From positions 1-40,558 of the forward strand of contig JAFAKN010000313.1 of assembly GCA_019235415.1 (NCBI GenBank): a stretch of DNA of 40,558 bases, written 5' to 3'. Below, piece after piece: positions 13,391 to 17,227 of this stretch. Under the pieces are notes generated by a model. It had not been told where the DNA came from, ran no database searches, and saw only the letters and a program-made list of their open reading frames with translations. How positions within the stretch are numbered: the first letter of the stretch is position 1; each line of letters begins with the position of its first letter. The DNA comes from Alphaproteobacteria bacterium. Lineage in GTDB: Bacteria > Pseudomonadota > Alphaproteobacteria > Reyranellales > Reyranellaceae. The translations under genes and the position numbers were made by a program.

Positions 13391-15056
13391 CACCTATTTC
13401 TATCGTTACGACAGGTACGACCGCGCCCTGCTCAGCGAGCGCATCGCGCAGTTCCGCGACCAGGTGCGCCGCAGGTTGGCGGGCGAGCTCACCGAGGAGC
13501 AGTTCAAGCCGCTGCGGCTGACCAACGGCCTGTACCTGCAGCTGCACGCCTACATGCTGCGGATCGCCATTCCCTACGGCACGCTGTCGTCGCGCCAGCT
13601 GCGCAAGCTCGCCGAGATCGCCCGCAAATACGATCGCGGCTACGGGCATTTCACGACACGTCAGAACCTGCAGCTGAACTGGATCAAGCTCGAGGACGCG
13701 CCCGACGCGGTCGCGGCGCTCGCCGAGGTCGACATGCATTCGATCCAGACCTCGGGCAACGTCATCCGTAACGTCACCGCGGACCACTTCGCCGGCGCCG
13801 CCATCGACGAGATCGAGGACCCGCGCATCTGGTGCGAGATCGTCCGCCAGTGGTCGACCTTGCACCCCGAGTTCAGCTTCCTGCCGCGCAAGTTCAAGAT
13901 CGCCATCACCGGCTCGCCCAACGACCGCGCCGCCGTGCGCGTGCACGACATCGGCCTGCGGCTGTGGTGCAACGAGCGGCGCAAGGTGGGCTTCGAGGTG
14001 ATCGTGGGCGGCGGGCTCGGCCGCACGCCGATGATCGGCAAGACGCTGCGCGAGTTCCTGCCCAAGGACGAGCTTTTGGCCTATCTAGAAGCCACGCTGC
14101 GCGTCTACAACCGCTATGGCCGGCGCGACAACCTCTACAAGTCGCGCATAAAAATCCTGGTGCACGAGATCGGCGTCGAGAAGATGCGCGAGGACGTCGA
14201 GGCCGAGTACGCCGAGATGAAGGACGGCGCGCTAAAACTGCCGGCCGAGACCATTGAGGCCATCGCCCGGCAGTTTGCACCGCCGCCGCTGCCGCACCGT
14301 CCGGCTGCTGTCGCCGAGGTTGAAGCGCTCAAGCTTAGCGAGCCGAACTTCGCCCTGTGGCTGAAATCGAACGTCGCGTCGCATCGCATGGCCGGCTATC
14401 GCATCGTCACGGCGTCGCTGAAGCCTGCCGGCGCGCCGCCGGGCGACGCCAGCGCGGCGCAGATGGAAGGTGTCGCCGACATCGCCGACTCCTACAGCCA
14501 GGGCGAGATCCGCGTCAGTCACGAGCAGAACCTGGTGCTGCCCCACGTCGCGGTCGAGGACTTGCCGGCGGTGTGGCGCGCGCTGGGGCAGCTCGGTTTC
14601 GCGGAGGCCAATCTCGGCAAGATCACCGACATCATCGCCTGCCCGGGTCTCGACTACTGCGCGCTGGCCAACGCGCGCTCGATCCCGGTGGCGCAGCGCC
14701 TCTCGCGGCATTTCGCCGAGATCGCCCGCCAGCACGACATCGGCGACCTCAAGATCAAGATCTCGGGCTGCATCAACGCCTGCGGCCATCATCATGTCGG
14801 CCACATCGGCATCCTGGGCGTCGACAAGAACGGCGTCGAGCTCTACCAGCTGAGCCTGGGTGGCGACGTCGACTTCGGCAAGACCGCGCTCGGCACCATC
14901 CTTGGTCCTGCCGTCGCCGCCGACAAGGTCGTGGAGGCCGTCGACTCGCTGGTCGCGACCTATCTCGAGAACCGCGGCGAAGGCGAGCGCTTCGTCGACA
15001 CCTTCCGCCGCATCGGCCTTCAACCGTTCAAGGAGCGCGTCTATGCCGCTGTTTAG
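13383..15056 (+). CDS. cysI: Assimilatory sulfite/nitrite reductase hemoprotein (siroheme, 4Fe-4S)
   Basis: This 557-aa enzyme reduces sulfite to sulfide by six electrons at a coupled siroheme and 4Fe-4S centre. The ferredoxin-like half domains carry GYGHFTTRQNLQLNWI and the repeat GEIRVSHEQNLVLPHV. The cluster ligands are in IIACPGLDYCALA and KISGCINACGHHHVGHIG (the Cys-x5-Cys and Cys-x3-Cys pairs). Sulfite and ferredoxin-type nitrite reductases share this fold; the cysG/DUF2849/DUF934 context favours sulfite. It overlaps DUF2849 by 8 nt and the DUF934 gene by 14 nt. Confidence 0.93.
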   Translation: MPDTYFYRYDRYDRALLSERIAQFRDQVRRRLAGELTEEQFKPLRLTNGLYLQLHAYMLRIAIPYGTLSSRQLRKLAEIARKYDRGYGHFTTRQNLQLNWIKLEDAPDAVAALAEVDMHSIQTSGNVIRNVTADHFAGAAIDEIEDPRIWCEIVRQWSTLHPEFSFLPRKFKIAITGSPNDRAAVRVHDIGLRLWCNERRKVGFEVIVGGGLGRTPMIGKTLREFLPKDELLAYLEATLRVYNRYGRRDNLYKSRIKILVHEIGVEKMREDVEAEYAEMKDGALKLPAETIEAIARQFAPPPLPHRPAAVAEVEALKLSEPNFALWLKSNVASHRMAGYRIVTASLKPAGAPPGDASAAQMEGVADIADSYSQGEIRVSHEQNLVLPHVAVEDLPAVWRALGQLGFAEANLGKITDIIACPGLDYCALANARSIPVAQRLSRHFAEIARQHDIGDLKIKISGCINACGHHHVGHIGILGVDKNGVELYQLSLGGDVDFGKTALGTILGPAVAADKVVEAVDSLVATYLENRGEGERFVDTFRRIGLQPFKERVYAAV

Positions 15057-15606
15057 GGAAACCGGCGTCGTCGACGACGTCTGGACGAAACTGGCCGACG
15101 ACCAAACGGTGCCGGCCGACGGGCCTGTGTTGGTGAGCCTCACGCGCTGGCGCGGGGCGCGGGCGGCGCTGCTGGCCCGCCGCGGCCCGATCGGGGTGGC
15201 GCTGGCCAACTCGGACGCGGTGGAGAGCCTTGCCGGCGACGTCTCGCGCCTCGACCTGGTCGCGCTGCATTTCCCCAAGTTCAGCGACGGCCGCGCCTAC
15301 AGCCAGGCCCGCCTGCTGCGCGGCCGCATGGGCTACGGTGGCGAGCTGCGCGCCACCGGCAGCGTGCTGCGCGACCAGCTGCCCTTCATGCTGCGCTGTG
15401 GCTTCGACGCCTTCGAGAGCGACCAGCCGGGCTTCGCCGACGCGCTCGCGGGTGCCCGCACGTTGTTCAGCGTCGTCTACCAGCCCGCCGAGGATGGCCG
15501 CACCCCCGTGTCCTTCCTCAGGTTATCCTCCCCCGTCATACGGGGGAGGTGGCCCGCAGGGCCGGAGGGGGAAAGCTCTAGTGAAGTAACGAATTACAAC
15601 TATTAG
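15043..15606 (+). CDS. DUF934 protein with repeat-encoded C-terminal tail
   Basis: A member of the DUF934 family (COG3749), associated with sulfite reductase and often annotated as an oxidoreductase, with unknown biochemistry. Conserved family blocks are LVALHFPKFSDGRAYSQARL, RGRMGYGGELRATGSVLRDQ and LRCGFDAFE. AAGGAG lies 7 nt before the ATG at 15043. Family homology ends near residue 160 (YQPAEDGRTPVSF). From 15527 the frame continues through the palindromic repeat, adding a tail of about 25 residues (SSPVIRGRWPAGPEGE...) before the stop at 15606. The original stop was probably lost when the repeat arrived. The cysH gene that often follows is absent. Confidence 0.88.
   Translation: MPLFRETGVVDDVWTKLADDQTVPADGPVLVSLTRWRGARAALLARRGPIGVALANSDAVESLAGDVSRLDLVALHFPKFSDGRAYSQARLLRGRMGYGGELRATGSVLRDQLPFMLRCGFDAFESDQPGFADALAGARTLFSVVYQPAEDGRTPVSFLRLSSPVIRGRWPAGPEGESSSEVTNYNY
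15527..15576. repeat. Half copy of the composite palindromic repeat
   Basis: Contains only the left half of the full element: outer hairpin CCTCCCCCG-TCATA-CGGGGGAGG (15527-15549), inner hairpin GGCCC-GCA-GGGCC (15551-15563), then GGAGGGGGAAAGC. The same 50-bp stretch, in the same orientation, begins the full element at 16017, on the other side of the DUF559 gene. It lies inside the DUF934 reading frame. Confidence 0.85.
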
Positions 15607-15632
15607 TAGCTGAATTGGTCACATTCTCGTCG

Positions 15633-15672
15633 TGTGCGTAGCTGACCATTCTCGGATGGTCAGCTACGCACA
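15633..15672. repeat. Perfect 17-bp inverted repeat covering the DUF559 start codon
   Basis: The left arm TGTGCGTAGCTGACCAT (15633-15649) and right arm ATGGTCAGCTACGCACA (15656-15672) are exact reverse complements around the six-base loop TCTCGG. The right arm begins with the ATG of the DUF559 gene and encodes its first five residues (MVSYA). In RNA this would bury the start codon in a stable stem; in DNA it could be a protein-binding or processing site. Confidence 0.9.
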
Positions 15673-16006
15673 AACCCTCAGAACGAACGCCACCGAACCG
15701 GAACGTATCCTTTGGCAGCGCCTTCGGCGTCGCCAATTGAATGGCTTCAAGTTCCGACGCCAACGGCCTGTCGGACCGTATGTCTGTGATTTCGCGTGCC
15801 TCGAGGCCGCGCTCATCGTCGAGCTCGACGGGAGCCAGCACGTCGTCCAGGCGCCATACGACATCACACGCGATGCCTTTCTGCGGGCACAAGGCTTCCG
15901 CGTCCTTCGCTTCTGGAACGGCGATGTTCTGTCGAGGCTCGACTGGATCGTCGAGACGATCTTCGAAGCACTTCATGGCGCCCACCTGGACGGCCGCCTC
16001 GACTAG
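15656..16006 (+). CDS. DUF559 (Vsr-like PD-(D/E)XK) endonuclease-domain protein
   Basis: A 116-aa protein of the DUF559 family, related to very-short-patch repair endonucleases. It has the N-terminal signature LRTNATEPERILWQRLR, then KFRRQRPVGPYVCDFACLE and the probable catalytic core LIVELDGSQH (Asp in VCDF, Glu and Asp in VELDG). It ends with AFLRAQGFRVLRFWNGDVL. No methylase or restriction partner is adjacent, so the function is unproven. The ATG at 15656 agrees with the family N-terminus but has no Shine-Dalgarno sequence and lies in a perfect hairpin; a GTG at 15632 would read through the hairpin. Repeat copies flank the gene in the same orientation. Confidence 0.85.
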   Translation: MVSYAQTLRTNATEPERILWQRLRRRQLNGFKFRRQRPVGPYVCDFACLEAALIVELDGSQHVVQAPYDITRDAFLRAQGFRVLRFWNGDVLSRLDWIVETIFEALHGAHLDGRLD

Positions 16007-16016
16007 CCTCGGCCGT

Positions 16017-16154
16017 CCTCCCCCGTCATACGGTCCCGTCATACGGGGGAGGTGGCCCGCCGGGCCGGAGGGGGAAAGCGACAGTATGAATTCTTGTTGT
16101 TGCCTACCCCCTCCGCCCGCTGGCGCGGGCACCTCCCCCGTTTGACGGGGGAGG
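16017..16154. repeat. Composite palindromic repeat element, copy 3 (downstream of DUF559)
   Basis: A full element: outer hairpin CCTCCCCCG...CGGGGGAGG (to 16052), inner hairpin GGCCCGCCGGGCC, GGAGGGGG, a short spacer, CCCCCTCC, inner hairpin GCCCGCTGGCGCGGGC, and final hairpin CCTCCCCCG-TTTGA-CGGGGGAGG ending at 16154. The first hairpin contains an extra tandem copy of CCCGTCATACGG (16022-16034 and 16035-16047). The last GGGGGAGG doubles as the ribosome binding site of the next gene. Confidence 0.88.
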
Positions 16155-16159
16155 TTTAT

Positions 16160-17227
16160 ATGAGGGGCATGATCATCGATACTGTCGAACCGCTCGCCCT
16201 GCGGATTCCGGCCGCCGGCAAGGGCGGTGCCTTGCATCTCGTCCTGTGCCGTGTGCGCACCAGCGACGGCGTCGAAGGCTTCGGCGAATGCCTGTGCAAC
16301 CGGCCGCCCATGCAGCAGGCGCTCGTTGCCACCATCCGCGATGCCATTGCACCGTTCTATGTCGGCAAATCGGTCGAGACACGCCAAGCCCTCAATCTCG
16401 ACGTGCGTCGTCGCTATGCCTCGTTCGGCCGGTCCGGCACCGTGCTCAACGCGCTCGCCGCCGTCGACACGGCCCTGTGGGACATCGCCGGCAAGATTGC
16501 GGGCCAGTCCCTGGCCAACATGATCGGCGGGGCGAAGAGGAGCGTCGTGCCGGTGATGGCGAGCCTCGACCGCTACGGCCACGCCGGGCAAGCCCGGGCG
16601 CGCGTCGAGCAGGCGCTGGCTGCAGGCGTTGCGGCAGTGAAGGTGCACGAGGCCGACCTCGCCGTGATCGAGGAGGCACGCCGGCTGGCCGAGCCGCCGA
16701 TGCCGTTCATCGCCGACGTCAACAATGCTCACACGATGGCCGACATCCGCCGCGACCTTCGTCGCTGGCAGGCGTTGAACCTCCTGTGGCTGGAAGACCC
16801 GGTCTGGCCGCCCGAAGACATGCTGGAATGCGCTCCCCTGCCGGGTGTTCCCGTCGGCCTCGGCGCCGATCTGGGATCGGCCGAGCAACTCGCTCTCTAC
16901 GGGCGCGCGCCGGCTGTGAACTTCATCCAGCCCGATGTCTGCATGTTGGGCGGCGTCTCGGAGATGCTGAAAGTCGTCGCCGCGGCGCCGCGGCAGGGCC
17001 TCGCCTTTGCGCCGCACACGCCGTTCATCGGACCGGCGGCGCTTGCCTCCCTGCACTTCATCGCGACCCTGTCCGGCTCCGCCTTCTTCGCCACCATCGA
17101 GGCCGACGACGGCATGGACCTCTTCGGCATCGGACTGCAGCGCTGGCAAAAATCGATCGCCGTGCCGAAAGGACCGGGCCTCGGTCACGATCCGGATCTG
17201 GCCCTAGTCGAGCGCTACTCCGCCTGA
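16160..17227 (+). CDS. Enolase-superfamily (mandelate racemase/muconate lactonizing) enzyme
   Basis: A 355-aa metal-dependent enzyme that would abstract a proton alpha to a carboxylate (racemase, dehydratase or cycloisomerase). The N-terminal capping domain is about 1-125, and a TIM barrel follows. Candidate magnesium ligands are Asp in FIADVNNAHT, Glu in LWLEDPVWP and Asp in GLGADLGSAEQ; a late His is in FAPHTPFIGPA. The second-strand motif reads VKVHE, so the usual KxK is KxH here. The substrate is unknown. The ATG at 16160 is preceded by GGGGGAGG, which belongs to the upstream repeat; the second ATG (16169) is less well placed. Confidence 0.88.
   Translation: MRGMIIDTVEPLALRIPAAGKGGALHLVLCRVRTSDGVEGFGECLCNRPPMQQALVATIRDAIAPFYVGKSVETRQALNLDVRRRYASFGRSGTVLNALAAVDTALWDIAGKIAGQSLANMIGGAKRSVVPVMASLDRYGHAGQARARVEQALAAGVAAVKVHEADLAVIEEARRLAEPPMPFIADVNNAHTMADIRRDLRRWQALNLLWLEDPVWPPEDMLECAPLPGVPVGLGADLGSAEQLALYGRAPAVNFIQPDVCMLGGVSEMLKVVAAAPRQGLAFAPHTPFIGPAALASLHFIATLSGSAFFATIEADDGMDLFGIGLQRWQKSIAVPKGPGLGHDPDLALVERYSA

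Follow-up and report, generated by a model that had tools for sequence, protein, structure and literature searches.

In the genome of an alphaproteobacterium of the family Reyranellaceae a small gene predicted to encode a nuclease of the DUF559 family is enclosed by palindromic repeats, which raises the question whether such genes and repeats merely happen to lie together or form a unit in which the nuclease helps the repeats to spread. A sequence-only reading of the locus had suggested the latter, by analogy with the RAYT transposases and their REP sequences. The locus is part of a stretch of 40,558 nucleotides, hereafter the window, whose first letter is position 1 and which belongs to contig C663 of a genome of 7.6 Mb.

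The DUF559 gene (15656-16006, forward strand) encodes 116 amino acids from the ATG at 15656, with a possible upstream GTG start at 15632. On its left lies a half element in plus orientation (15527-15576, forward strand; single-stranded DNA fold z -3.62). Half elements are built from a hairpin, a short linker that is possibly a hairpin too, and a purine tail; in the left element these are the hairpin at 15527-15549, the inner hairpin at 15551-15563 and the forward-strand tail GGAGGGGG at 15564-15571, which is the mirror image of the purine arm of the hairpin. On the right a block at 16017-16154 folds far more strongly than its shuffles (z -9.67). The nuclease gene thus stands, as had been noted before, between near-identical copies in the same orientation (15532-15576 and 16035-16079, 98% over 45 nt). 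Of the earlier description of the right block as one full element the shared same-orientation stretch was retained, but the block itself turned out to be an inverted pair, formed by a plus element (16017-16079, forward strand) with an internal duplication of 13 bp and a minus element (16107-16154, reverse strand). The latter is the inverted partner of the left plus element, the 39-nt arms of the two (15516-15554 and 16127-16165) being 85% complementary.

Both neighbouring genes are in contact with the repeats, in agreement with the sequence-only reading. The end of the DUF934 gene (15043-15606, forward strand), which lies beside a sulphite reductase gene, is replaced by element sequence, its frame running on through the left element to 15606, and an element was absent from the equivalent point in 10 of the 10 related DUF934 loci displayed. 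The right block stops 6 nt short of the start codon (ATG at 16160) of a gene of the enolase superfamily (MR_MLE; 16160-17227, forward strand). Among the loci fetched, the far neighbour of this site is visible in genome G007 only, in which DUF934 is joined directly to the gene beyond the enolase-type gene and both the DUF559 and the enolase-type gene are missing. A gene-less REP pair was seen shortly 3' of DUF934 in loci L210, L212 and L213 and is missing in L211, a case of presence and absence close to the window's own insertion site.

A perfect 17-bp hairpin (15633-15672, forward strand; fold z -9.73) includes the ATG of the DUF559 gene and could possibly control its translation. No comparable start-codon hairpin was found in 60 other loci scanned, save two in which the element itself was matched, and the hairpin was therefore discarded as a family trait. 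By eye, a hairpin also lies immediately ahead of the start of E. coli ycjD (L202). The second DUF559 gene of the window's genome (G000:C648) is flanked by elements as well. A search of Rfam, with six sources queried, yielded no match.

According to Pfam the window protein contains DUF559 (PF04480, E 5.1e-40) and a sub-threshold match to MTES_1575, with no other family detected. Profile searches retrieved the gonococcal endonuclease-like protein 3HRL (E 1.4e-38) and the homing endonuclease I-Bth0305I (3R3P, E 0.0022), and the predicted structure (pLDDT 84.9) aligned with 3HRL (Z 16.4), 3R3P (Z 12.1) and Vsr (Z 11.8). I-Bth0305I is presumably a member of the EDxHD family. Across 35 sequences E16, D58 and D69 are invariant, and D45 and H62 are conserved in at least 90%. 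Based on the modelled fold and the active-site residues, the protein is assigned to the Vsr-like PD-(D/E)XK nucleases. In the available text on VsrA (PMC12907096), a DUF559 protein of Caulobacter tied there to a Vsr-like repair role and to the SOS response, four of the five residues named correspond in spacing to E16, D45, D58 and H62.

The sequence-only reading had proposed counting repeat-flanked DUF559 genes against chance. As the main test each locus was scored by the best inverted match between its two flanks, irrespective of the sequence of the repeats. An inverted match above the 99th percentile of the controls was obtained for 111 of 136 DUF559 loci compared with 8 of 796 control genes, so that the flanks are strongly enriched. 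Among the loci of relatives such a match was present in 51 of 58 (47 of 53 within the genus), and among the other loci in 60 of 78, the latter group consisting of 73 loci and 5 from the plasmid collection and including L124 and L126, which fall inside the Reyranella clade on the tree. The 136 loci were drawn from 146 after removal of duplicates (L122, L123, L125, L127, L090) and of loci with short flanks (L087, L103, L138, L176, L194). When the loci were collapsed by synteny, 78 of 92 clusters had at least one flanked member and 74 had all members flanked. Flanked loci occur in Xanthomonas, Hydrogenophaga, Azospirillum, a Nitrospirae and an FCPU426 bacterium, among others. The pairing of the DUF559 gene with repeats is well supported.

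An element pattern, composed like the GTCATCC pattern used below after the flanks had been inspected, gave the same picture for relatives and named taxa. The order plus element, gene, minus element was found at 61 of 131 DUF559 loci and at 2 of 772 control genes (at least 150 aa, from the same loci), and at least one element lay near 96 and 54 of them, respectively. In these 61 DUF559 loci the elements are located within 250 bp of the gene. Over the 131 loci the nearest upstream element was in plus orientation in 82 of 87 cases and the nearest downstream element in minus orientation in 69 of 74. From this usual order it follows that the gene occupies the spacer between the two members of a REP pair. 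It also excludes same-orientation repeats, the arrangement noted in the window, as the defining layout: the inverted arrangement is the rule and the window's same-orientation pair a variant.

Significant inverted flanks were missing in 25 of the 136 loci, 10 of which have a one-sided element by pattern and 15 none. DUF559 genes lacking repeats, which the sequence-only reading had named as evidence against its proposal, thus exist as a minority of 15 loci that fail the inverted-match and the element test alike. Four of the 15 (L111, L112, L113, L115) form a separate Reyranella branch, and two others, N. gonorrhoeae L241 and Picosynechococcus L243 (plasmid pAQ6), show strong direct flank matches with scores of 162 and 103. 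The genes L171 (Ramlibacter) and L182 (Variovorax) were missed by the pattern and considered as repeat-less, yet they carry inverted repeats of another sequence. At L242, on a plasmid of Deinococcus proteolyticus, the DUF559 gene is accompanied, by eye, by G-rich hairpin repeats that form an inverted pair and match each other past the end of the hairpin.

The gene-bearing units are outnumbered in the genome by gene-less pairs (REPINs). The pattern GGGGAGGTGN{4,30}GGAGGGG matched 355 times in the window's genome, compared with 3 matches of the reversed pattern. Among the matches listed 98 half elements were examined (100 of the 355, minus one overlapping duplicate and the last), of which 82 belong to pairs of plus followed by minus with a spacer of 7-79 nt; the opposite order occurred in none. 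The gene-less inverted pairs share the geometry of the gene-bearing ones and are far more numerous.

Near DUF559 genes 246 hairpins were examined, and the 3' arm is a purine arm in 209. Its mirror image follows at a match of at least 85% in 153 of these, and among the 209 the mirror match is better than the direct one in 134 and worse in 10. Judged by their sequence, the DUF559-linked repeats are built, with a hairpin and a mirror tail, like the intrastrand triplex motifs (TM, PIT; box C), described in PMC4666352 as a hairpin with a purine arm followed by its mirror image and present in many copies. As far as the available text of that paper extends, the E. coli motif was reported to form a triplex in vitro, BoxC structures had already been found as triplex motifs with an earlier tool (section 15), two unlike motifs sometimes occur in inverted arrangement (section 18) and the motifs are unstable loci in E. 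coli (section 19); the same text describes no mobility genes in their context and leaves their origin open. In E. coli itself ycjD is annotated as DUF559 and is followed by a hairpin-plus-mirror-tail sequence.

The repeats are specific to the nuclease family. The GIY-YIG nuclease genes of the genus were considered as a neutral control, but proved unfit since they are flanked by a repeat class of their own (inverted flanks in 27 of 29), and ParE toxin genes, with no inverted flanks in 29 loci, were used instead; for both families the 30 best-scoring loci were sampled and 29 scored. Elements of the triplex type accompany 45 of 53 DUF559 genes, none of 29 GIY-YIG and none of 29 ParE genes, and elements of the GTCATCC type 1 of 53, 23 of 29 and 0 of 29, respectively. 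Across the Alphaproteobacteria (L405-L432) 16 of 27 GIY-YIG genes have inverted flanks, several of the CGTCATCC type. Many of the inverted REPs flanking the Reyranella GIY-YIG loci L345-L374 are CGTC-like, and judging from these flanks the GIY-YIG nuclease is a candidate partner for CGTC REPs.

Within the DUF559 family the repeat type follows the nuclease clade. On a tree of 136 DUF559 domains, which was built from 105 columns and in which 49 of the 133 inner branches stay open, 27 changes of repeat type are required, compared with 67.1 in shuffles (0 of 200 as low), and for type A alone 3, compared with 21.6. DUF559 clades with unlike repeat types can occur side by side in one genome, as types A and B do in G020. 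Furthermore, with kinship ignored throughout, the 65 genomes of the genus have more repeats per Mb the more strong DUF559 genes they contain (rho 0.71 raw, 0.64 after subtraction of four elements per gene, and 0.66 in the 48 genomes that are at least 90% complete). The median density is 13.7 per Mb in the 43 genomes with a strong DUF559 gene and 4.3 in the 22 without, which still contain 0-80 pattern matches. In 37 genomes whose flank types were judged by eye (L062 counted as A here and as D on the tree), type A repeats reach 19.2 per Mb in the presence and 3.4 in the absence of a gene with type A flanks, and type B repeats 4.8 and 1.0 with regard to genes with type B flanks. Type B repeats are also denser in genomes with type A genes (3.7 vs 0.5 per Mb, p 0.006); the other cross-type comparison of the 37 genomes was not raised (p 0.17). 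The analogy with RAYTs, as far as it predicts that repeat type tracks the nuclease clade and repeat density the gene number, is thus borne out.

A search for empty sites, likewise proposed from the sequence, revealed units of gene and repeats that are present or absent at conserved sites. At site A, between genes labelled by eye as xseA-like and RraA-like, the DUF559 gene and its left element occur in 5 of the 49 genomes read (L318 was left unread), and 2 of these 5 lack the right element. A lone hairpin of the DUF559-unit type is present in 1 of the 49, a different palindromic element of the GTCATCC type in 17 by reading (19 by a loose pattern), and most of the remaining genomes carry nothing. 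The loci of site A with this other REP family are L306-L314, L319-L321, L254, L255, L264, L269 and L323. Since site A holds the DUF559 unit in some species and another REP family in others, some sites attract several element types. At site B the unit is found in 4 of 36 genomes (G014, G020, G071, G013), and the sister genome G004 is empty there with about 90% identity on either side. Further palindromic repeat families, of the TCTTCCGGACCGCG type and the CCTCACCCTCAGGAG type, were seen at site B in L328, L329 and L330. The nearest empty sites at the window's site, A and B are too diverged for exact junctions or a target-site duplication to be read.

Three apparent cases were rejected. In G013 the two gene copies on C207 and C87 are overlapping contig ends, and the six loci of the A. 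brasilense group at one site of the Azospirillum chromids had been fetched for having the gene and are uninformative as to an insertion polymorphism. E. coli ycjD was dropped as a clean empty-site case because, according to the available text of PMC12817139, strains without ycjD carry the eef operon in its place; at least 80% of the ycjD-region query is covered at one place in 3,362 of 5,426 E. coli genomes. The DUF559 genes form 22 multi-member synteny clusters, indicating frequent inheritance in place. Few were found outside chromosomes: 45 among 72,556 plasmid records, of which some are the size of a chromosome, and 3 among 50,697 phage records. Movement must therefore be infrequent.

In our opinion the DUF559 gene and its surrounding repeats probably constitute one minimal mobile unit, whose nuclease recognises the repeat type of its unit and promotes the spread of units and gene-less pairs alike. 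Movement of the repeats by the nuclease, and the manner in which it would occur, we infer. The gene of this Vsr-like nuclease is nested between two inverted repeats, each with a hairpin and a mirror tail. The enzyme would cut or nick such a structured repeat, probably in a single-stranded or extruded state, after which repair synthesis would copy the cut end into a new site. Such a cut-and-copy step is suggested by the homing-endonuclease fold and the nesting of the gene, and would be closer to the action of a homing endonuclease than to that of a transposase of the DDE or HUH kind. On this view the gene-less pairs would represent non-autonomous derivatives.

A passive co-location, by which small orphan genes and repeats gather in permissive intergenic sites, would account for the different REP class at site A in 17 of 49 genomes (19 by the loose pattern). 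However, it does not predict the stereotyped orientation and spacing of the elements, and ParE toxin genes, which are also small, are flanked in 0 of 29 cases (control genes 8 of 796). The strongest argument against it is the two-way specificity between nuclease families and repeat types, and we regard passive co-location as highly improbable.

It seems unlikely, too, that the repeats owe their movement to some other enzyme, with the nuclease gene travelling as cargo. Such an enzyme could be sought among the RAYTs, to which the known GTAG REPs are linked in the available text of PMC3733652, and would be in line with the persistence of repeats in genomes without a strong DUF559 gene. However, the window's elements are devoid of a GTAG end, the repeat type is predicted by the nuclease clade, and the distance of at most 250 bp between elements and gene in the 61 loci of plus-gene-minus layout leaves little room for another gene. 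Alternatively, the nuclease may be a repair or structure-processing enzyme which is made useful by the repeats, removing mismatches or triplex blocks, and is kept adjacent for regulation or as an addiction module. The Vsr-like repair role and SOS link of VsrA (PMC12907096) and the instability of triplex motifs in E. coli (PMC4666352), both as given in the available text, are compatible with this role. A repair enzyme acting in trans, however, need not sit within a repeat pair or match its sequence type, nor would it explain units that are present or absent at sites, so that this alternative is quite doubtful.

The preferred reading, that the nuclease spreads its own repeats, would assign a role to a family which Pfam still labels as of unknown function and add a route of repeat spread that is independent of transposases. 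The recurrence of the gene-repeat pairing in many bacteria suggests that the enzyme spreads a widespread repeat class whose carrier was unknown. We found no report linking DUF559 to such repeats in the open PMC literature, outside of which most subscription papers lie. The chances seem evenly balanced that two unrelated homing-endonuclease folds are dedicated mobilisers of two large orphan repeat classes, DUF559 of the intrastrand-triplex repeats (box C/PIT/TM) and GIY-YIG of the CGTC-type REPs. If this is true, a large part of the short palindromic repeats that bacteria carry outside the RAYT system would owe their spread to cut-and-copy nucleases and not to transposases. With a named nuclease and a stereotyped gene-in-repeat layout the spread is directly testable, ycjD of E. 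coli K-12 and VsrA of Caulobacter providing the handles.

Among the known systems the RAYT/REPtron with its REPINs is similar in that a low-copy enzyme gene, often inherited in place, is flanked by palindromic repeats abundant in the genome, the repeat type tracks the enzyme type and gene-less inverted pairs are common. It differs in that the window enzyme is predicted to be a Vsr-like nuclease and not a Y1/HUH tyrosine transposase, and in that the window's repeats carry a mirror-repeat purine tail. By eye, no GTAG was found at the ends of 15527-15576 or 16017-16154. As its enzyme is not an HUH transposase and its repeats have no GTAG end, we propose that the unit functions in the manner of a REPtron without being one. 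With the EDxHD homing endonucleases (I-Bth0305I, 3R3P) the window protein shares the catalytic fold, but its gene is nested in a repeat pair and no intron or intein was recognised around it. MITEs and their autonomous parent elements are likewise bounded by terminal inverted repeats, which may or may not enclose a gene, whereas the window's unit is without a recognised transposase. The CGTC REPs, reported in the available text of PMC3733652 as a class without a dedicated transposase, have their counterpart here in CGTC-like repeats that pair with GIY-YIG and not with DUF559 genes. Finally, the sequence downstream of ycjD has a T-T-A second loop like the E. coli type A intrastrand triplex motif of PMC4666352, a match by description and not by consensus letters; the available text of that paper names no mobility gene near the motifs, whereas a nuclease is proposed here as their partner from many taxa.
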